Shown one piece after another: positions 46,878-57,428 of a stretch of DNA of 64,000 nucleotides. Under the pieces are notes generated by a model. It worked only from the letters and a program-made list of their open reading frames with translations, did no database searches and had not been told where the DNA came from. This stretch comes from Phycisphaerales bacterium (GTDB lineage: Bacteria > Planctomycetota > Phycisphaerae > Phycisphaerales > UBA1924): NCBI GenBank assembly GCA_029260495.1, contig JAJDDD010000006.1, positions 1-64,000 on the forward strand, given 5' to 3'. Made by a program: the position numbers and the translations under genes. Position 1 is the first letter of the stretch. Each line of letters starts with the position of its first letter.

Positions 46878-47909
46878 TTACACACTCGTTCCCAGCACCG
46901 GCTCGCTTGGCGTTCTGTCAAGAATCTGCTTGACAATCGCGTCCGGATCAACGCGATCCGCCTCTGCCTCAAAGTTGAGAATTATGCGATGCCGCAGCGC
47001 CGGCAGCGCCGCTGCTTGCACATCCGCATGTGATGCGTGATACCGGCCGTCCGTCAGCGCCATCACCTTCGCAGCGAGAATTAGCGCCTGCGCCCCGCGC
47101 GGGCTGGCGCCGACACGGATGTACCGATTTGTGATCTCCGGCGCAAACTGCCCATCGGGGTGCGTCGCGAGCGCCAAACGCGCCGCATACTCCTTCACAT
47201 GCGGCGCGATGATCGCCTGCCGCACCAGCTCCTGCGCATCAAGAATCGTAGCCCCATCCATCATCGCTTGGACCGCAGGCGTCGTTCCCCCCGTCGTGCG
47301 ATCCAGAATCGTCATCAAGTCGTCAAGCTCGGAATAGCCAAGATTCAGCTTGAAAAAGAAGCGGTCAAGCTGCGCTTCAGGCAGTGGATACGTCCCCTCC
47401 TGCTCAATCGGATTCTGCGTCGCGAGCACAAGAAAGGGTTGATCGAGCCTGTACGTCTCGCCGCCAACCGTTACAGATCGCTCCTGCATCGCTTCGAGTA
47501 GCGCGGATTGCGTCTTCGGCGTCGCCCGGTTGACCTCATCAGCAAGAACGATCTGCGCAAAGATCGGACCGCGCTGAAACTCAAACTTCCGGCGCCCGGT
47601 GTCCGGATCCTCCATCACTATGTTGGTCCCGACAATGTCCGCCGGCATGAGATCAGGCGTGAACTGAATCCGCGAAAACGGCAGTGAAAGACACTCCGCC
47701 AGCGTGCGCACCAGCATCGTCTTGCCTAGCCCCGGAACACCTTCAAGCAGAACATTCCCACCCGCAAAGAGCGTCGTAAGCACGCCTTCAACAATGTCTC
47801 GATGTCCGACAATCACCTTGCCAATTTCGTCCGCCAGGCTATTGAACGTTTGTTGAAACTGCTGACAGCGTTTCTGAACATCTTCGGGTGTGTTAAGTAG
47901 GTCGGTCAT
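46878..47909 (-). CDS. MoxR-family AAA+ ATPase
   Basis: A 343-residue ATPase. Walker A is GVPGLGKT (57-64), Walker B ends VLADEVN (121-127), and sensor 1 is VLATQNPIEQEGTYPLPEAQ, the family signature. The N-terminal region GKVIVGHRDIVEGVLTTLFA and the lid domain ASPRGAQALILAAKVMAL are also typical. MoxR proteins act as chaperones for metal-cofactor insertion or VWA-protein assembly. It lies 63 bases after the large VWA gene and nine bases before the EF-hand-like gene. Confidence 0.93.
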   Translation of the reverse strand: MTDLLNTPEDVQKRCQQFQQTFNSLADEIGKVIVGHRDIVEGVLTTLFAGGNVLLEGVPGLGKTMLVRTLAECLSLPFSRIQFTPDLMPADIVGTNIVMEDPDTGRRKFEFQRGPIFAQIVLADEVNRATPKTQSALLEAMQERSVTVGGETYRLDQPFLVLATQNPIEQEGTYPLPEAQLDRFFFKLNLGYSELDDLMTILDRTTGGTTPAVQAMMDGATILDAQELVRQAIIAPHVKEYAARLALATHPDGQFAPEITNRYIRVGASPRGAQALILAAKVMALTDGRYHASHADVQAAALPALRHRIILNFEAEADRVDPDAIVKQILDRTPSEPVLGTSV

Positions 47910-47972: not shown

Positions 47973-50900
47973 CTAAGTGTCAGAATTATCATCGCGCATT
48001 GAGTCGCGCGCACGTTGTTTTGCCTTGCGAAGCCGGCTGATGGCGCTGTCCTCTTCGCCAGCCGGTTCAGGATTGGGCTGCTTTTTCTTCGTGACGATCG
48101 GCGCCGCCCCGGGCGAATCAACGATCGGCCCAGCAGGCTTGCGAATGTCTTCTGCGCGAACCTCAAACTTCGTCGCAGCTGCTTTCCGCGCTTTGGCAGC
48201 GGTCGCAGGATCAGCCCCGCGCTTCGCCAGACGCTCGCTCGTGCGCTGCCGCGCCGTGCGCAGAGCGCCAATCTGTTTCTCCGAGGCCTTCTCCTGCTTG
48301 CGGCCAGCCTTGCGAATCGCCGCCCCAATCGCGCGCACATCAATGCGCACGCGCCGAACCGCCACGTCAGCGAGAAACAAACCAATCGTCGCCAGCGCCA
48401 GCGCCAGCCAGATCAACTGCGTCGCAACTGGCTTCGTGAGGTCTGCCCTATTAAAAAGCTCAGCCTGCGCAGGATCCATCGGCAGCACGCGCCCGCCAGT
48501 AATCTCAGCCACCTGCGCCAAAAGCGGCGCATTGTCACGCAGTGCGCGATGCTCATCGGCAAAGGGTCGCGTTACCGCCGCCTGCGCGTTCCCTCGCTCA
48601 ACCCGCGCCGGCTCGCCATTCGCGCCGGAAACCGTCGCGCGGTACTGCAGCCCGATCACATACGCCCCCGCCCCGGATGATTCAAACCGTCCTTCATACC
48701 GGCCAGCCCCCGCCTGTCGCAGAGGCAACTCAAGAACACCGCCGTCCGGTTTCACAATGCGCCCCGTAAAGTTTGCAAAGTTCAGCCGCTCACCCGCAGC
48801 GTCCACCGCGTCAACAATCACCCGGGTTTCATCGCCATCCGTTTCCGTAATGACGTTCACCGTCGCCGACCCCGACGGTCGCATCGCCCACCGAATATGC
48901 TGCGCCCAGAACGCGTCGTAGCTGTCCCACGCAACCCACGCAGAGTTCCAGCGCGTCGCAGCGTCAGAGGTATACGCGACCACGCGCCCAAGCCCGTACT
49001 GCCACTGCGCAAGAATCGGATCATTCTCCGGCCCGCGCAAGGGAACAAGCGACAGCCCCTCACGCTCAGCTGTCACAACATATCCCGAGATCGGCGGCGC
49101 CGGCGTCGCAATGCCGCGCATTGCCTCAGAGCCAATATTTTGAAAAGTCGGCGAGAAAGGATCGCCTTCCCAAATCAGCGAACGCCGAATCGTTTGCGCT
49201 TCCTTAATAAATATTTGCGGCAGATCCCCGAGCTGATTCTGCCGCGTAATCTGGTAGTGCGCCCCGCCCGTCACCTGCGCAAGCTGCTGCATCTTGGTGA
49301 GATCGCTCAACCCGGAGTGCGGAAAAACCGCAACAGTGCTAATGGTGATGCTGTTATTTATGTACTGCTGCACAAGCTGCGCCGACGGCGGCGAGGGATC
49401 ACCATCGGAAATAATAATGCAATGCCGCTGAGAAGCATCCGTCGCCAGCAGCCCCTGAAGCGTAAGCTGCATGGCGCTGGCAAAATCAGGCATATCGCCG
49501 AATGTTAAATTGTTAATAGCTTTGTTCACGGCCGCCCCGTCGCCTTTAAGCGCCATCGGGTACAGCCAATACGCCCCGCCCTGTTGCCAGCCATATTCAG
49601 CTACGCCAACAAGATCAAGCCGGCTCACCGCATTGACGGCAGCAATCGCCGTCTGCTTCCCCCAGTAGTTTCCCTCTGGCATCTCGCACGAATGCATAAT
49701 CAGCGCCAGCGCGCCCTTCGGCATATGACGCTTCTGCGGCGGATCAAGCTTCACAGGGAATGCGTCAGCGAGCGGCGACCCGATCCAACCCCCGGCGCCA
49801 AAGGAGTTCGGCCCGCCCACAACAAGCAGCCCGCCACCAAGATCGTGAATATAGCTCTTGAGCTCTTCCTGTTGCTCCAGCGTAAAGGAGTACGCAGAAG
49901 TGTCGACAAGAACAACAGCGTCGTACGCGCCAAGATCAATGAGAGAGACGTGCCCCTCGCCCGGCGCCGTCACTTCAATCTCAAGGTCCGAGCGATTCAA
50001 GGCTCGCACCAACGGGCCAATCGCCAGCTCCTCCTCAGCGTACACAAGAACGCGCCCCTTGCCCTCGACAAATGTCACAGCCATCGCACTGTTGTTCTCA
50101 AGAAGCGAGTCATCAGCGCGAATGAGCGGCTCAAAAACAGCTTCATAACGCTGCGGACCCGAGCGAGCCAGCGTAATCGGCACAGTGAGATGATTGGGCC
50201 CGGGCTCAAGTTCAACATCAACGGAGACACCCGGGGCAGCCGGATCGAGATCAACAGGAACACTGTTGGCGCGCAAAGTCACCCGGCCGCGCGTCGCTGA
50301 ACGCGCATTGATCACAAACCGAAGGTTCACCGTCTGGCCCCGCCGCGCCGTGGGGGGCGCAATCAGCCGATCGAATATGACTTCACGCTGAAGGTTGTAG
50401 GTCGCCGGCAGAACATCAATGGGAATGCCCGCAGCCTCTGCTTCGCGCGCAGCGGCAAGAATGCTCCCCGTTGTCTCGTTGCCATCTGAGACAAGAACAA
50501 TGCGCCCCGCAGCGTCTTCGGGTAGCACCGCCATCGCGAGGCGCACCCCCGAGGCAATATCGGTCGCATCCAGATTGCCTTGCGGAGAAACGTCCGGCTC
50601 GCGCAAGAGCGAACTGGGCAGCGCCAAAACAAAACTATCCTCAGCCGCGGAGACAATCCCGAGCCGATCCTCCGGCTTGGCGTTCTCGCTCGCTCGCCCA
50701 ATATATGCCTTGAGATTCTCCGCATATTCCGGCGGCATCGACTTGCTCGCATCAACAACCAGCATGACTGCAAGATCATCGCTTTCGCGGCGCCAGCGCG
50801 GCTCCGCCAGCACAACAGTCAGCATCAGCAAAACAATCAGCCGCAGCCCGATCGCAACAATGCGCGTCCGCGGACCCAGACCTGTCAGACTCCTTCGCGC

Positions 50901-50978
50901 AATCCAGAACACAGCGACAGTCAACGGCACAAGCAGAATGAGCCACAACGGGCGATCGAGTTGAAGCGGGCCGAACAT
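47973..50978 (-). CDS. Large VWA membrane protein with amidotransferase-like region
   Basis: The 1001-residue protein starts at the ATG at 50978, overlapping the stop of the permease-NHL gene by ATGA. It has two N-terminal membrane helices, a VWA-like domain with DASKS near residue 75, and a GATase1-like segment DLGGGLLVVGGPNSFGAGGW (~390-410). A second VWA-like domain contains IISDGDPSPP, followed by beta-sandwich parts. One C-terminal membrane helix (~880) precedes a basic coiled-coil tail (KAGRKQEKASEKQIGALRTA). This architecture is known from large VWA proteins beside MoxR operons; function in the envelope is inferred. Confidence 0.85.
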   Translation of the reverse strand: MFGPLQLDRPLWLILLVPLTVAVFWIARRSLTGLGPRTRIVAIGLRLIVLLMLTVVLAEPRWRRESDDLAVMLVVDASKSMPPEYAENLKAYIGRASENAKPEDRLGIVSAAEDSFVLALPSSLLREPDVSPQGNLDATDIASGVRLAMAVLPEDAAGRIVLVSDGNETTGSILAAAREAEAAGIPIDVLPATYNLQREVIFDRLIAPPTARRGQTVNLRFVINARSATRGRVTLRANSVPVDLDPAAPGVSVDVELEPGPNHLTVPITLARSGPQRYEAVFEPLIRADDSLLENNSAMAVTFVEGKGRVLVYAEEELAIGPLVRALNRSDLEIEVTAPGEGHVSLIDLGAYDAVVLVDTSAYSFTLEQQEELKSYIHDLGGGLLVVGGPNSFGAGGWIGSPLADAFPVKLDPPQKRHMPKGALALIMHSCEMPEGNYWGKQTAIAAVNAVSRLDLVGVAEYGWQQGGAYWLYPMALKGDGAAVNKAINNLTFGDMPDFASAMQLTLQGLLATDASQRHCIIISDGDPSPPSAQLVQQYINNSITISTVAVFPHSGLSDLTKMQQLAQVTGGAHYQITRQNQLGDLPQIFIKEAQTIRRSLIWEGDPFSPTFQNIGSEAMRGIATPAPPISGYVVTAEREGLSLVPLRGPENDPILAQWQYGLGRVVAYTSDAATRWNSAWVAWDSYDAFWAQHIRWAMRPSGSATVNVITETDGDETRVIVDAVDAAGERLNFANFTGRIVKPDGGVLELPLRQAGAGRYEGRFESSGAGAYVIGLQYRATVSGANGEPARVERGNAQAAVTRPFADEHRALRDNAPLLAQVAEITGGRVLPMDPAQAELFNRADLTKPVATQLIWLALALATIGLFLADVAVRRVRIDVRAIGAAIRKAGRKQEKASEKQIGALRTARQRTSERLAKRGADPATAAKARKAAATKFEVRAEDIRKPAGPIVDSPGAAPIVTKKKQPNPEPAGEEDSAISRLRKAKQRARDSMRDDNSDT

Positions 50979-53611
50979 CACTGCAAGGTGGCGCCTTCTT
51001 CATGAGTCGTCATTGAAGCCCGGATTGGCCGCGGGTTTTTCTTCGGCGCAAACGCAAGGAGCCGGCTGTTGCCTGAGTCCACAACAAACGCCCGCCAGCC
51101 GAGCGTGGCAATCGCCCACGGGTAGGCAAGCTCTCCCTCGTCCCGACCCGCCACACCGTACAACCCGAGCGAACTGCCACTGGCGGGATCGATGCGCTGC
51201 ACGCGATTATTTCCAAACTCAGCCACAAGAACTGTTCCATCGGGAAGGATCGCAAGTCCATAAGGATAGTTGAAGGCGCCCGGCGCAGAGCCGGGAGTCG
51301 CCCCGGGCAATCCAAGCCAGCGCACAAGCTCGCCATCAAGTGAAAAACGCCCGACGCGGTGATTCGCAGCGTCCGCAACGATTAACTCGCCAAGCTCAGG
51401 ATGAATCAGGATGGATTGCGGCCGCCGAAACTGAATTCTCTCAGCTGATTCACTTGCGCCTTCAGAGCCAAATGAGAATAGAAAATTGTGCTCCGCATCA
51501 AAGGCGCTGATGCGATCATTCCCGCCATACTCCGAAACATAGAATCGTTCCGGCGTCACACCATCATCACCTGGAAGAATCGCGATGTCAGTGGTGTAGT
51601 AAAACTCGCCCGGACCGTCGCCATACGACCCCCAGGAGTCAATCTGAATCGCAGACCCGTTCTGCGCAGGCTTGTATACAATCACGCGTTGTTGATGCGT
51701 GTCCGGAATATAAACAAGCCCGTCGGACCCGCAGGTCACACCGACCGGAAATCCCTGCGAGATATCAGGAACAGGCCAACTGCCAATCGGCGCCCCTTCC
51801 GCGCTGAGCGTTTGAATGCGCCCCGATTTATCAACGACATACAACCGGTCATCACGCGCATCGACCGCCCGCGGGTAAACAAACTGCCCCGGCGCCCGCC
51901 CGACTTCTCCAATTTCATGCGAAACCACAATGGGAATAGCTTCGGATGACGGCTCAGCCTCACAACTCGACATCACGAGAGGCGTGATGACCAGAAGCAG
52001 CGCGGGCGCGGCGCGCATGAAGCGCAGTGTTCTGGATCCGAACAGCGACGCCATGAATCCAAGCCCAAGTGTTATCGCCAATATTAATGCGCACGCAGCG
52101 CTGAGCTCTTCCATGCGGTTGTAGTGTAGATAGCTGAGCATTCGCTGCGGAAGATTATCAGCGCCCGGAGGCGCTAGGATGACAGAGGCTTCGATTTCAT
52201 GGAAGCTCAGCGCGAAAATGGCCAGGGCGATCGCGCCCATCCCGCCAGCCTGAAGTGGCGCTGACGTGCGCAGCCAGGAAGCAAATGAAAGCGGTCCAGC
52301 AAGATCGCGAACCTCCGCCAGAGATCGCGGCTCCATGCGCGCAAACACAAACCCTGCTACTGCAGCGAGCGCACAAAAACGAGCAATGTGCGCGCCAGCA
52401 ACGCCAATCCGCGTCTCCCCGATCCACCCGCCTCCCGGAAGCGTTGAGGCGCTCAGCAGCGCCGACCCAATCAAAACGCCGGGAGTCAGCAGCAGCGCAA
52501 TCCAAAATAGAAGCGTCAAACGAGCGCACACCGGCGCCGCGGTCCGAGGCGCTGTCGCAAGCCACAGGGACATCGCAGCGCATACAAAAATCCCTGCAAC
52601 CCCCGCTGCGAGCGCCACACCGGCGCTGACGCCGGCGGCCTCACTCACAAGACGCCAGACGCGGGTGAAGGAGTGCGCACTCTTGATGTTGATCAAAAAA
52701 AGCGCGAGCGGCGCCAACGTGGAAAGTGCCCAGATAAGCCAGGCCGCGATGAGCCAGAAGAGATGGATATTTCGGTCTGGTGCGCACTGGGTGCGCGCTT
52801 CGGCGCGTGTGGTTCGATCAAGGAGCCGCGCCAGTGCGCACGCGGCGACGATCGCGATCATCAGAAGCGGGGTAGCTGCGATCCAGGCGCCGGCGGCGCC
52901 CCCCGTTTCATCGAGCAGCCGCCAGATGACAATCGCGTAGGTCTCAACCTGCGCGACATGCAGCGGGACGGCGCCGCTGAGCATAATAAGCGTGACGAGT
53001 GCGATTGAAATAGCGATGGCGCCGCGCATCGAGGTGAGCACGACGCGCGCCCGCGACCAGGTGCTGGCGGGCGCCAGGCGCATGGAGTCCAGAGTTACGT
53101 TTTCGATTGTGCGCGCGCCCGCGCCCATCACGACGGCGGCGATCGGCCACGCCCACAGCGCCAACGCGAGGATTGCGTGCATTTTCGTGACGAAAGGCGC
53201 CCAGGTGGGGGCGTCGCGGAGAAGAAGATCGCCAGCCCATGTGCCGGGCGCGCGCGCCAGACCCCAGCCGGCGTAAACGATGTAGTTGGGCACGAAAATG
53301 GGCGCCACGAGCAGAACGGTCCAGCCGGGGCGCAGGCGGCGCATGGACCAGGCGGCGGGGAAAGCAAGGACTGTGGAAATAAAGCCGATAAGCAGCGTTA
53401 CGCTGAGTGTGCGCACAAGGAGGGGAGCGTTGGCGATGGTGACACCGAGGGCATGGCCGATGGAGGAAGCCGGCGTGTCGGGAGATTGTGTGACCCCGAG
53501 GATGACTCCGAGCGCGATGATCGCGGTGAGAAGAGCGCACAGAGCGGCGCTGGCGGTGACGATGATGGCGATCGCGGGCGAATGCCGAAGGCCGGCGAGG
53601 CCGGGGATCAT
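50978..53611 (-). CDS. ABC-type permease fused to NHL-repeat beta-propeller
   Basis: From the ATG at 53611 (overlapping the upstream stop by ATGA) the protein has 877 residues. Residues ~10-530 carry about 12 hydrophobic segments and resemble a double-domain iron(III)-type ABC permease (FbpB-like), e.g. LVRTLSVTLLIGFISTVLAF and VVMGAGARTIENVTLDSMRL. At residue 532 a new MRAAPALLLVITPLVMSSCE begins, a complete lipoprotein signal with lipobox SSC, and then NHL repeats (VGRAPGQFVYPRAVDARDDR, YVSEYGGNDRISAFD, VADAANHRVGRFSLDGELVR). The frame is open throughout. Either a true fusion or two genes with a lost stop codon; internal initiation at 52018 is possible but has no Shine-Dalgarno. Confidence 0.8.
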   Translation of the reverse strand: MIPGLAGLRHSPAIAIIVTASAALCALLTAIIALGVILGVTQSPDTPASSIGHALGVTIANAPLLVRTLSVTLLIGFISTVLAFPAAWSMRRLRPGWTVLLVAPIFVPNYIVYAGWGLARAPGTWAGDLLLRDAPTWAPFVTKMHAILALALWAWPIAAVVMGAGARTIENVTLDSMRLAPASTWSRARVVLTSMRGAIAISIALVTLIMLSGAVPLHVAQVETYAIVIWRLLDETGGAAGAWIAATPLLMIAIVAACALARLLDRTTRAEARTQCAPDRNIHLFWLIAAWLIWALSTLAPLALFLINIKSAHSFTRVWRLVSEAAGVSAGVALAAGVAGIFVCAAMSLWLATAPRTAAPVCARLTLLFWIALLLTPGVLIGSALLSASTLPGGGWIGETRIGVAGAHIARFCALAAVAGFVFARMEPRSLAEVRDLAGPLSFASWLRTSAPLQAGGMGAIALAIFALSFHEIEASVILAPPGADNLPQRMLSYLHYNRMEELSAACALILAITLGLGFMASLFGSRTLRFMRAAPALLLVITPLVMSSCEAEPSSEAIPIVVSHEIGEVGRAPGQFVYPRAVDARDDRLYVVDKSGRIQTLSAEGAPIGSWPVPDISQGFPVGVTCGSDGLVYIPDTHQQRVIVYKPAQNGSAIQIDSWGSYGDGPGEFYYTTDIAILPGDDGVTPERFYVSEYGGNDRISAFDAEHNFLFSFGSEGASESAERIQFRRPQSILIHPELGELIVADAANHRVGRFSLDGELVRWLGLPGATPGSAPGAFNYPYGLAILPDGTVLVAEFGNNRVQRIDPASGSSLGLYGVAGRDEGELAYPWAIATLGWRAFVVDSGNSRLLAFAPKKNPRPIRASMTTHEEGATLQ

Positions 53612-54705
53612 TGGCTGAAGACCTTGGCGCACAAAGCGATCGCAGCGTTATCTGCCTCAGCGACGCGCTCAAAGGTCAGCGACTGGATGGGGTCGGGGAT
53701 AGCGAGGTCGGGGAACTCGCGCTTGAGTTCTTCGCGGATGGGGATGTTGCGCGAGTCACTCTGCGCGAGCATGCGCTCAACGCGGGCGCTGGTGAGGAAG
53801 GCGACGAGCTCTTCGGCCGCATCGGGGTTTGGCCCGCCCGCGATCCGCGAGACAGCGTTTGGAATCATCAAAGCGCCGGCGCGGAGTTCATCACGATCGT
53901 GGCGAATGTAGACAAGGTCAATGGGCCAGTCGTTGCGTTGGCCTGCCCAGACATCGTCGGTGTCGGTGAGGCCAATGTCCGCTTCGCCGTAGGCAACTGA
54001 TCGGACGACAGCGGAGTTGCCATCGAGGAGGCGCACGTTGTTTTCTTGAAGGGCGTTCAGCCATTCGTGGGCAGCGTCTTCACCCCAGATCGCGACGAGC
54101 GCAGCGATGTGCCCTCGTGTTGTGCCGAACTGTGGGCGGGCGATGACGATTCTGCCGCGCCAGCGGGGATCCGTAAGGTCTGTGAGATTTCGGGGCGCGT
54201 CTTCGGGTGTGACTCGTTTGGTGTTGTAGACAAGCACGCGGGCGCGCTGGGCGAAGCCGACCCAGAAGTTGTCTTCGCCACGAAAGGCAGCCGGCCTGCT
54301 GGTCAAGCTTGCCTGTGATTCAATGGGAGCGAGGATGTTTTCCTGAGCGAGGCGAATTGTCTGGAACACTTCGCTGGACCAGAAGACATCGGCGCGAGGA
54401 CTCGCGCGTTCGATGCGGAGTTTTTGGACGAGACCGGTGTTCTTGGTTGCTTCGGTGTCGCCGCGCGCGAGGACGCGGATGCCGGTTTCTTCTTCGAAGG
54501 CCGCGATGATCGGCTGGGCGATGGGCTCGTCGGCGGAGTAATAGAGGACAACCTCGCGCGGGGCGTCTTTGGGGGCGTTGCGTTCACAGGAAGAGATGGC
54601 GACGAACATCAAGAGCGCACAAAGACTGATGAGCGCGATGCGGAGGCCAGTCCGGAAGTCATATATTGCAGTTATTGACACGTCGGCGGTGGGGGGTGGT
54701 TCCAT
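53608..54705 (-). CDS. ABC transporter solute-binding lipoprotein, iron(III)-type
   Basis: A 365-residue protein with an N-terminal helix and lipobox VAISSC (Cys ~39). The mature part begins VVLYYSADEPIAQPIIAAFE, the pattern of FbpA/AfuA iron(III)-binding proteins (family 1 solute-binding). Later blocks such as PRADVFWSSEVFQTIRLAQE, RVLVYNTKRVTPEDAPRNLT and MIPNAVSRIAGGPNPDAAEE are also typical. It binds an anion or metal complex outside the cell and delivers it to the permease. The permease gene follows with a 4-base overlap. The ATPase is not in the window. Confidence 0.88.
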   Translation of the reverse strand: MEPPPTADVSITAIYDFRTGLRIALISLCALLMFVAISSCERNAPKDAPREVVLYYSADEPIAQPIIAAFEEETGIRVLARGDTEATKNTGLVQKLRIERASPRADVFWSSEVFQTIRLAQENILAPIESQASLTSRPAAFRGEDNFWVGFAQRARVLVYNTKRVTPEDAPRNLTDLTDPRWRGRIVIARPQFGTTRGHIAALVAIWGEDAAHEWLNALQENNVRLLDGNSAVVRSVAYGEADIGLTDTDDVWAGQRNDWPIDLVYIRHDRDELRAGALMIPNAVSRIAGGPNPDAAEELVAFLTSARVERMLAQSDSRNIPIREELKREFPDLAIPDPIQSLTFERVAEADNAAIALCAKVFSQ

Positions 54706-54726: not shown

Positions 54727-56427
54727 TTACTTGTCGTCAGGTTGATCTTGAGAAGAGTCGGTGTTTTCAGCTTCTTCAACGCCTTTGCGTTCGAGGTTGC
54801 CAAAATAGCGTTTGACAGCGTCGTGGAACTCGCGAGGAATTGCTTTGTTGTCGATGGCTTCGGCGGCGGTAGCCTCGCCGGCTTCGACAGCTTCGGCAAA
54901 CTCAGCCCGGGATTCACCGCGGACCTGCGTATCGTTGACGAGGCGGCGAGCAATGATGGCGCCGGGAACTGTCTTTGTTTTTGATTTTTCCTTGCGTGTG
55001 GTGAAGTCCGCTTCGGCTTCTTCCATTTGCATACCGCCTTCGCCGCGACCCTTGGGCGCGAAGAGGTCGAACATATCAAAGGGCTTGGAGGCGCCTTGTC
55101 CGCCGCCTTCACCGAACATTTCGCTGAGCGACGCCAACTGTTGGGTGATCTGTGATTGGGCGGCGCCGGCGGCTTCGAGCTCGGACTGCATCATGTCCAT
55201 CTCGCTGAGCATGTCGCCCATGTTCTGCATCGCTTGTTGCAGTCCTTCGCCGTTGTTCATGCACTCGGCGCACTGCTGCATTCCATCAGCAAGCTGCTCC
55301 ATCGCGCCTTTGGCTTCCTGCACAGCTTTGGCGGCGTCCATGATCTGCTGGCGCTGCTCGTCGTTGAGGCCTTCGAGCTGGTCGAGCGCGTCCTGGAGCG
55401 CCTTGGGATTACCAGCGAGTTCAGGATCAAGACCCATTTGTTCGAGCTGGTTTTCCAGAGCGTTTTTCTGCTCAGCGAGCTTGTTGAGTTGCTCAGCAAG
55501 TTGTTCAAGTTGCTGGGCGAGTTCGGCTTTGTCTTCGTCGGACATTTCACCGTTGGCGAGATTTTCAGCCAGTTTGGAAAGCTCTTCGCGGGCGCCGGAA
55601 AGATTGCCTTTCTGCATCTCCTGGCTGAGTTTGGTGAGCGGGCCCTGCCCTGGGACGCGGAGTTTTTTGAGTTGATCCTGCAGGGCTTCCATTTTGAGCC
55701 CATCTGCGCTTTTCTGAAGTTGACTGAGGCGATCGCGAATCGAAGTGAGCTTCTTGATCGCAGCGCGGCGGACGGTTTCAGGATCGCGGGCATCGGGCTG
55801 AGTGAGTTGCTCAAGATTCTTTTCAAGCTCGGGATCGTCGATGCTGGCGAGCGTGTCGCGCAGCTCTTTCTCAACGGATTCAACCTTGGCGACGGCTTCC
55901 TGGAGATTTTGTTGTTCTGTTTGGTCGGCTCGGGCTTTGGCGAGCCAGCCGAGCGCGTCGCCTTGCGGGGCGATGAGCCAGACAAGACCGAAGAGGGCGC
56001 CGGCGATCAGCGGGAGGGCCCAGGAGTTCGGAGTTCGAGAGGGGAACGCCTGACGAACCAGAACGCGCTGAGCGACACCCTCCGCGCGGCGGACGGTCGC
56101 CTGGCTCCAGGGATCGGAGTTCTTCGCGACACAGAGCGCGGTGCTGAGTGTTTCGCGCAGGCCGGCGCGTTCATCGACGGCGCGAGCGACGGCGAGCTGG
56201 CTTGGCGCGGAGATCAGCGCCCAGAGGATCGCGAGGATGACAGAGGCGGCGCCGGCGCCAATCCAGAGTTCGCGCCAGGGCGGCGTGATTGCGAAAATGC
56301 GCTCGACAGCGAGTGTGATGAGGAGGGCAGCGATAAGGGCGGTCGTGATGAGGAGCCAGGCGCGGACGGAGCGTCCGATGAGGATTCGTATGCCGGCGCG
56401 TCGAAGCACGCTGTTAATCTGCGTCAT
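54727..56427 (-). CDS. Membrane protein with long Glu/Gln-rich coiled coil
   Basis: The start at 56427 gives 566 residues. Hydrophobic segments are at ~28-46, ~55-75 and ~140-158, and the region from ~175 to ~420 is a long coiled coil rich in Gln, Leu, Glu and Lys (e.g. LAQQLEQLAEQLNKLAEQKN). The tail has Met/Gly-rich low complexity (GEGGGQGASKPFDMFDLFAP) and a final basic domain (PREFHDAVKRYFGNLERKG). Similar DUF4175-like proteins accompany MoxR/VWA clusters in planctomycetes. It precedes the solute-binding gene by 21 bases and probably belongs to the same transcript. Function unknown. Confidence 0.72.
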   Translation of the reverse strand: MTQINSVLRRAGIRILIGRSVRAWLLITTALIAALLITLAVERIFAITPPWRELWIGAGAASVILAILWALISAPSQLAVARAVDERAGLRETLSTALCVAKNSDPWSQATVRRAEGVAQRVLVRQAFPSRTPNSWALPLIAGALFGLVWLIAPQGDALGWLAKARADQTEQQNLQEAVAKVESVEKELRDTLASIDDPELEKNLEQLTQPDARDPETVRRAAIKKLTSIRDRLSQLQKSADGLKMEALQDQLKKLRVPGQGPLTKLSQEMQKGNLSGAREELSKLAENLANGEMSDEDKAELAQQLEQLAEQLNKLAEQKNALENQLEQMGLDPELAGNPKALQDALDQLEGLNDEQRQQIMDAAKAVQEAKGAMEQLADGMQQCAECMNNGEGLQQAMQNMGDMLSEMDMMQSELEAAGAAQSQITQQLASLSEMFGEGGGQGASKPFDMFDLFAPKGRGEGGMQMEEAEADFTTRKEKSKTKTVPGAIIARRLVNDTQVRGESRAEFAEAVEAGEATAAEAIDNKAIPREFHDAVKRYFGNLERKGVEEAENTDSSQDQPDDK

Positions 56428-56498
56428 TAGAAAGACCCTTCGGCAGACGGACTCAGCTTGTTCACCATTGTTTGGTACGCGGGAAGGGCGCGAGAGTT

Positions 56499-57428
56499 TC
56501 AATCGGTGACGGATGTTGGGTCTTCGCCGCGTTCGATGGCGTCAATCTTATGCACCCTGCGGGCGTGGCGACCGCCGTCAAAGGGCGTGGAGAGCCATTT
56601 TTCGATGATTCGCTCGATAAGCTTGCTTCTGATGAAGTCGGCGGGGAGGCAGAGAACATTGGCGTCGTTGTGGCGGCGGCTCATTTCAGCGGTGATCTCG
56701 TCGTAGGCGACGGCGGCCCGGACACGGGGGACTTTATTGGCAGCGATGCACATGCCGATGCCGGTTCCGCACAGGAGCAGGCCGCGCGAAGCGGCTCCGG
56801 TGGAGACGGCGACGCCGACATGCCAGGCCATATCGGGGTAATCGCAGCTGCGTCCTTCGGGGCAGGGGAAGGCGTTGATCTCGAAGCCGTCCTTTCGGAG
56901 GGTGGCGACGATGTGATCAAGCATTTCGACGCCGCGATGATCGGAGCCGATGGCGAGTGTGCGATCAGACATTTCGAGACCTCGTTGCAGCCTGGCGCTG
57001 ACATGCTTTTTGAGCAGGCGGGCCGTTTCATCGTAGAGGGTTTGGTCGCCGCCGATGGGGTCCGGGATGTTCGCCCCATTGGGATCGAGGAGCTCGATTT
57101 TTGCAAAGGCGTCGGGGGCGATGGCGTGAAGCTGCTCAACATGGGAGGCGGTCATGGCGTAGATGTGGTCAGCCCCGGCGATCATGTCCCGGGAGATGGG
57201 GGTTGAGCGATGATGGTGGGGCTCGATTTTGAGGCGGCGAAGTGCTTCGGCGGCTTCGGGCGTCATGGGGGCGCCGGGGCCGGCGGCGACGCCGGCTGAG
57301 AAGGCTTGCACGGAATGGAATGAGGTTTTTTCAGCGGCGATGAGGTGCAGGGCGATTGCTTCTGCCATGGGGCTTCGGCAGGTGTTTCCTGTGCAGACGA
57401 AGAGGATGGTGTTCGGGCTGGTCGCCAC
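56499..57428 (-). CDS. Fusion of low-molecular-weight phosphatase and RpiB
   Basis: A 309-residue protein with two domains. Residues ~1-150 are a low-molecular-weight tyrosine/arginine phosphatase: VCTGNTCRSPMAEA with catalytic Cys12 and Arg18, and the general-acid region DPIGGD (~123). Residues ~155-300 are ribose-5-phosphate isomerase B: RTLAIGSDHRGVEML, CGTGIGMCIAANKVPRVRAA with the active-site Cys, and SRRHNDANVLCLPADFI. Fusion joins a pentose-phosphate enzyme to a phosphatase (RpiB next to Wzb/YwlE-like genes is known in some lineages). It opens the long minus-strand operon. Confidence 0.9.
   Translation of the reverse strand: MATSPNTILFVCTGNTCRSPMAEAIALHLIAAEKTSFHSVQAFSAGVAAGPGAPMTPEAAEALRRLKIEPHHHRSTPISRDMIAGADHIYAMTASHVEQLHAIAPDAFAKIELLDPNGANIPDPIGGDQTLYDETARLLKKHVSARLQRGLEMSDRTLAIGSDHRGVEMLDHIVATLRKDGFEINAFPCPEGRSCDYPDMAWHVGVAVSTGAASRGLLLCGTGIGMCIAANKVPRVRAAVAYDEITAEMSRRHNDANVLCLPADFIRSKLIERIIEKWLSTPFDGGRHARRVHKIDAIERGEDPTSVTD

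Follow-up and report, generated by a model that had tools for sequence, protein, structure and literature searches.

Within a 64,000-nucleotide stretch of a Phycisphaerales draft genome (GenBank assembly GCA_029260495.1, contig JAJDDD010000006.1, positions 1 to 64,000; hereafter the window), one minus-strand gene (50978..53611) joins an FbpB-type ATP-binding cassette (ABC) importer permease to an NHL β-propeller through an internal lipoprotein signal. Judged from its sequence, this fused gene probably encodes a natural polyprotein, to which Lgt would attach a lipid and which signal peptidase II (LspA) would then cleave. A broader claim, which we hold with a little less confidence but still favor, is that the polyprotein has been kept fused across much of the class: signal peptidase II acting at the internal lipobox would free the partner lipoprotein, the spent signal would become a thirteenth permease helix, and 1:1 synthesis of the two products would be fixed.

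The frame 53632..50978 is open over 884 codons, with no stop between the permease and NHL parts, so the uninterrupted fusion given in a preliminary description of this DNA holds. Residues are numbered here from the GTG at 53632; the ATG at 53611 is the likely start of the gene, giving 877 aa. At its upstream end this ATG overlaps the stop of a substrate-binding protein gene as ATGA, and at its downstream end the stop is overlapped by the start of a von Willebrand factor A (vWA) gene (GTG 50981 or ATG 50978). The permease half occupies 52034..53611 and ends with a helix at residues 507–533. The joint then follows in the order of a lipoprotein signal: a positively charged, predicted cytoplasmic n-region (R534–R540; 52013..52033), a short hydrophobic h-region that runs through Ser556 of the lipobox (51965..52012), and Cys557 (51962..51964), the predicted lipidation site, with the predicted cut immediately before it. 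The NHL propeller, predicted to be periplasmic, spans 51050..51925. The complete signal noted earlier, with lipobox SSC (S555-S556-C557) and a Met of its own at 52018 (Met539, within the n-region), is therefore present, and every lipoprotein-type feature can be located: positive n-region, short h-region, small residue at −1, and Cys. The signal lies internally, at residues 534–557 of 884, and not at the N terminus of the translated protein.

The permease half matches 9j4r_A, the FbpBC structure from Thermus thermophilus, by profile (E-value 1.9e-23; profile positions 37–532), and the same chain ranks 14th in a Foldseek fold search, with a template-modeling (TM) score of 0.75 on the target. An AlphaFold2 model of the fused protein (mean predicted local distance difference test score, pLDDT, 88.5) contains, by visual reading, twelve long membrane-type helices and then a further helix at residues 535–554; model confidence falls at the signal, with block means of 69 for residues 541–550 and 56 for residues 551–560. 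Together, the fold, the profile, and the twelve modeled helices bear out the earlier assignment of a 12-segment permease, here of the FbpB type. The general permease family PF00528 (BPD_transp_1) has no match in the window protein and matches 14 of the 46 members of alignment A2 (introduced below; best E 2e-11). For the NHL half, the family matched is PF01436 (E 1.6e-17). The likeness to FbpB in PDB entry 9j4r thus consists of a shared fold and a nearly full-length profile match with the permease half; unlike the window protein, the FbpB chain (~490 residues) is consumed by that match (3–490) and carries neither an NHL nor a lipobox extension.

The order of these elements suggests a processing scheme, in which the sequence is read against the known succession of steps in lipoprotein maturation. 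Upon insertion, the permease half would form an FbpB-type importer subunit of 12 helices whose C terminus is cytoplasmic, an even helix count, read visually from the model, being expected to bring the end of helix 12 back to the inside. The Arg-rich stretch after helix 12 would stay inside, and the even count combined with Arg at the joint fits a signal with its N-terminal side in. The short hydrophobic segment would then act as an internal lipoprotein signal peptide, running outward and threading the NHL propeller into the periplasm, and Cys557 would come to lie on the periplasmic side of the membrane, the site of Lgt and LspA action. Lgt would add diacylglycerol to Cys557, and LspA would cleave between Ser556 and Cys557, so that the propeller would be freed with its lipid anchor while the signal helix stayed attached to the permease C terminus. 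The two products, the upstream-encoded binding protein, and an ATPase encoded elsewhere may then make up one importer with an extra lipoprotein. Genes for both enzymes are at hand: this genome has one match to Lgt (E 1.3e-57) and one to LspA (E 1.8e-27).

Related loci were surveyed for the fusion and its joint. These were drawn from 120 stretches of 3.7–20 kb (near and order genomes), 80 loci of named public genomes (Phycisphaerales, Sedimentisphaerales, and Phycisphaerae titles; some are the same genomes as in the other sets), and a further 40 stretches, mainly from other orders of the class. After exclusion of 21 second-fetch loci, 38 duplicate sequences, and 5 loci without NHL, 198 nonredundant loci remained, nearly all from Phycisphaerae, with 105 fused proteins and 93 unfused NHL proteins. 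Both forms are thus present among relatives, and orthologs are not uniformly two separate genes, so this refuting outcome, named in the preliminary description, does not hold; in the nonfused loci, the halves are mostly adjacent separate genes. The named public set (n = 80) comprises 56 fused loci, 22 split loci, and 2 with NHL alone. One genome has two copies (G038:C29:22808-25141 and G038:C79:1186-3636), of which one (L308) is long-branched.

Protein matches outline how widely the family is spread. Of 41 near genomes, 35 have a match to the fused protein at E 0.001, some of them weak NHL matches only; at the level of the order, 163 of 251 genomes match (E 1e-25), and at that of the class, 153 of 298 (E 1e-30). 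Across the phylum, 115 of 343 genomes match (E 1e-40); beyond the class, nearly all of the matches listed cover the NHL part only.

The joint Cys is kept in all 105 fused proteins, as located by a search that began 8 residues past the permease match and favored a Cys preceded by G, A, S, or N; the residue at −1 is G in 93, S in 6, A in 5, and N in 1. All 105 joints are hydrophobic enough to pass the hydropathy cut. Net positive charge upstream is present in 104 of them, and an uncharged run of 9–26 residues likewise in 104. In the public set, G, A, S, or N followed by Cys is found in the joint region of 56/56 fused loci. Cys557 is also invariant in two alignments, A1 with 42 sequences and A2 with 46. 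In A1, composed of fused proteins with a mean column identity of 31%, it is the sole invariant column from H503 to G578, and the residues flanking it vary freely. A strict lipobox test was passed by 81 of 88 joints. Of 491 Cys in the permease halves only 2 passed it, of 273 in the NHL halves none did, and of 1,017 other open reading frames 6 did; given these contrasts, the joint lipobox is no chance match.

The breadth of this conservation bears on two simple explanations of the gene. That the fusion is a sequencing or assembly artefact can be considered practically negligible: apart from the genome being a draft in 22 contigs, nothing was found in its favor, and 105 nonredundant fused frames from many genomes rule it out. 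Alternatively, the gene could be an ordinary unprocessed fusion, its lipobox left over from a once separate gene and the hydrophobic segment acting solely as helix 13. Stop loss between neighboring genes is a common route to gene fusion, and exactly one in-frame stop divides 14 of the 72 unfused pairs. A relic would be expected to decay, yet the Cys persists in 105/105 fused proteins amid varying neighbors, and A1 members outside the window's family are only 25–31% identical to the window protein. We consider this explanation very improbable.

The separate NHL proteins carry the same kind of signal as the joints. A Cys with G, A, or S at −1 is present in 92 of the 93 unfused NHL proteins, and in a comparison of 88 fused and 75 split genes, which preceded the addition of the last 40 stretches, the median uncharged run was 16 residues at the joints vs. 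17 in the separate proteins and the hydropathy was 2.37 vs. 2.22. The two gene forms have also switched repeatedly. A tree of 86 of the 167 usable rows, with 19 loci of short or weak permease matches omitted, needs 7 fused/split changes, all 7 forced by branches with Shimodaira–Hasegawa-like approximate likelihood ratio test (SH-aLRT) support ≥95; a 108-row tree needs 3. The rooting of the latter is biased, its outgroup rows having all been chosen from fused loci, and is a poor guide to whether the ancestor was fused; in the 86-row tree, rows from other orders of the class include both fused and split genes. In one family, a single in-frame stop lies between the halves in loci L291 and L293, and none does in L292.

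The earlier suggestion of two ancestral genes whose intervening stop was lost is accordingly too simple: the fused state is widespread, the states have switched at least seven times, and the trees do not give the direction of change. The single-stop pairs, the switching, and the lipobox in unfused NHL proteins make the one-gene and two-gene forms look interchangeable, and the repeated switching, taken with the Cys in 92/93 separate proteins, implies that covalent linkage is seemingly unneeded for function. Such interchangeability is what cutting of the fused product would predict. In these sequences, the stop codon appears to be optional and the lipobox hardly so.

The main rival to a processed polyprotein is an uncut lipidated tether, in which Lgt modifies the Cys, LspA does not cut since the signal belongs to a polytopic protein, and the propeller stays attached. 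A precedent for such a layout is OpuA, whose binding domains are carried on the permease via an anchoring helix, that is, an extracytoplasmic domain placed on the permease polypeptide after a hydrophobic membrane helix (PMC11065425). The wide retention of the fused state and the position of the modeled signal helix, directly after helix 12, also suit a tether, the latter with the low model confidence noted above. The two systems differ in several respects. The domain fused in the window protein is an NHL propeller, and its substrate-binding protein is encoded by a separate gene. The OpuA anchor and linker are described as not conserved among Lactobacillales species (PMC11065425), whereas the lipoprotein signal at the joint here is conserved, its Cys being present in 105/105 and G at −1 in 93 of 105. 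The tolerated switching between one-gene and two-gene forms likewise speaks against a tether. The tethering topology raised in the preliminary description thus stands in part: the joint is real and fits the proposed layout, and strict lipobox retention together with repeated switching favors cutting by signal peptidase II over a permanent tether, which we regard as unlikely, although the strongest of the alternatives.

Several observations weigh against the processed polyprotein or limit the evidence for it. Lipidation without cutting would select for the same lipobox. Seven of the 88 joints fail the strict motif (by visual reading, five with P, C, or N at −3, one with N at −1, and one with a net charge of only +1), and one fused joint (L234) has a net charge of −1. 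The separate NHL proteins are not uniform either: of the 93, 90 pass the hydropathy cut, 88 the run-length criterion, and 83 the charge criterion. One of them (L322) has a hydrophobic N-terminal segment but no Cys, indicating that the lipobox can on occasion be dispensed with; this protein has perhaps moved from the lipoprotein route to a different kind of export. The fused genes share ancestry, and the 105 fused proteins are therefore not 105 independent events; nearly all of the record titles listed denote metagenome-assembled genomes. The same-frame arrangement of the 14/72 single-stop pairs is not above chance frame agreement. Finally, the trees are quick searches on subsets, include the long row L308, and carry no direction of change.

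A further alternative, also raised in the preliminary description, is that two overlapping products are made: the full-length fusion and an NHL lipoprotein arising by internal initiation, in the window from the ATG at 52018. Candidate starts do exist. Two in-frame ATGs precede the Cys in the window, at distances of 30 and 18 codons, of which the nearer is 52018, and among 88 fused genes an ATG followed by positive charge lies near the joint in 38 and some such ATG, GTG, or TTG in 72. Ribosome-binding motifs scarcely accompany them. With a Shine–Dalgarno (SD)-like motif required, the fused counts fall to 0 for ATG and 1 for any of the three codons, vs. 13 and 19 among 75 split genes (in which 46 and 60 have the respective starts without that requirement). 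Conversely, 50/88 fused genes lack an ATG followed by positive charge and 16/88 lack any such ATG, GTG, or TTG. Neither window ATG has an SD-like motif, and RNA folding near the joint is unremarkable (z 0.30). Because the split genes also make little use of SD motifs, the start-codon comparison is suggestive and not final; read in that way, the sequences do not support a conserved internal start at the joint, and a separate NHL product made by this route is improbable.

The substrate-binding protein (53608..54705, minus strand) is of the ferric/2-aminoethylphosphonate/thiamine kind; it scores with the 2-aminoethylphosphonate and thiamine models under their cutoffs. In 80 of the 86 fused loci with room for one, a binding-protein gene precedes the fused gene; among split loci with room, the figure is 2 of 57. 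Genomes with the split form have a related binding protein elsewhere, mostly 43–50% identical to that of the window; in split loci of the window's own family, for example L039–L047, the substrate-binding gene is missing from the locus. By a hand tally over 41 genomes, the binding protein and the permease nearly always occur together: 26 genomes have both, 13 have neither, and 2 are discordant, G021 having the permease without the binding protein and G028 the reverse.

We also considered whether the importer ATPase is encoded in the same operon and rejected this. An uncalibrated motif scan of 201 loci, duplicates included, found an ATPase in 2, both on the opposite strand, and none of the 31 PF00005 matches in the genome falls in the window. 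The best FbpC/PotA-like candidate is unlinked and single, has a TOBE domain, and lies at G000:C11:38116-39189 (L343:1492-2568); its neighbors within 4 kb are, by visual reading, a redoxin and a histidine kinase, with no permease. One match to it occurs in each of 36 of 41 relatives (E 1e-90), including genomes without the permease, and none in the permease-bearing genomes G008, G021, and G026; for these reasons, it is no more than a candidate partner of this permease. The ATPase may be shared among several importers.

Other minus-strand genes flank the importer genes. The vWA protein (47973..50981) belongs to a family found beside them in 107 of 137 loci, and a MoxR-type AAA ATPase (46878..47909) to one found in 67 of 137. 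We considered for this pair a ternary MoxR–vWA–β-propeller system (PF20030) and set it aside: the bpMoxR match (E 5.2e-10, above the bpMoxR cutoff) is far weaker than the general AAA_3 match (E 1.4e-63). Upstream of the binding protein, a 591-aa protein (54727..56502) has no Pfam match, and its family occurs in 54 of 137 loci.

Lipoprotein signals are usually treated as N-terminal features. A literature search on processing, fusions, and this pair of genes, limited to openly licensed papers, listed none that, judged by its listing, deals with an internal lipobox in a polytopic fusion protein of bacteria. A comparable case is the Bradyrhizobium FbcH cytochrome b/c1 precursor, in which a polytopic and an exported protein are made in one chain that a signal peptidase then splits at a signal within it. 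FbcH is not known to be a lipoprotein, and its peptidase would hence be a different one; the proteins concerned also differ. The polytopic Streptomyces Rieske protein has an internal twin-arginine translocation (Tat) signal, an export signal that follows membrane helices and takes a C-terminal domain across the membrane; it uses the Tat rather than the lipoprotein pathway, and the available part of the source mentions no lipobox (PMC13186574). Neither of these proteins, nor OpuA, is known to carry an internal lipobox.

If the internal signal is lipidated and cut, proteins of like layout are wrongly taken for uncut membrane fusions, and both Lgt and LspA must be able to take a substrate presented at the end of a 12-helix protein. 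The same pair of proteins, fused or split many times within these bacteria, would then amount to a natural experiment on why cells join or separate partner genes.

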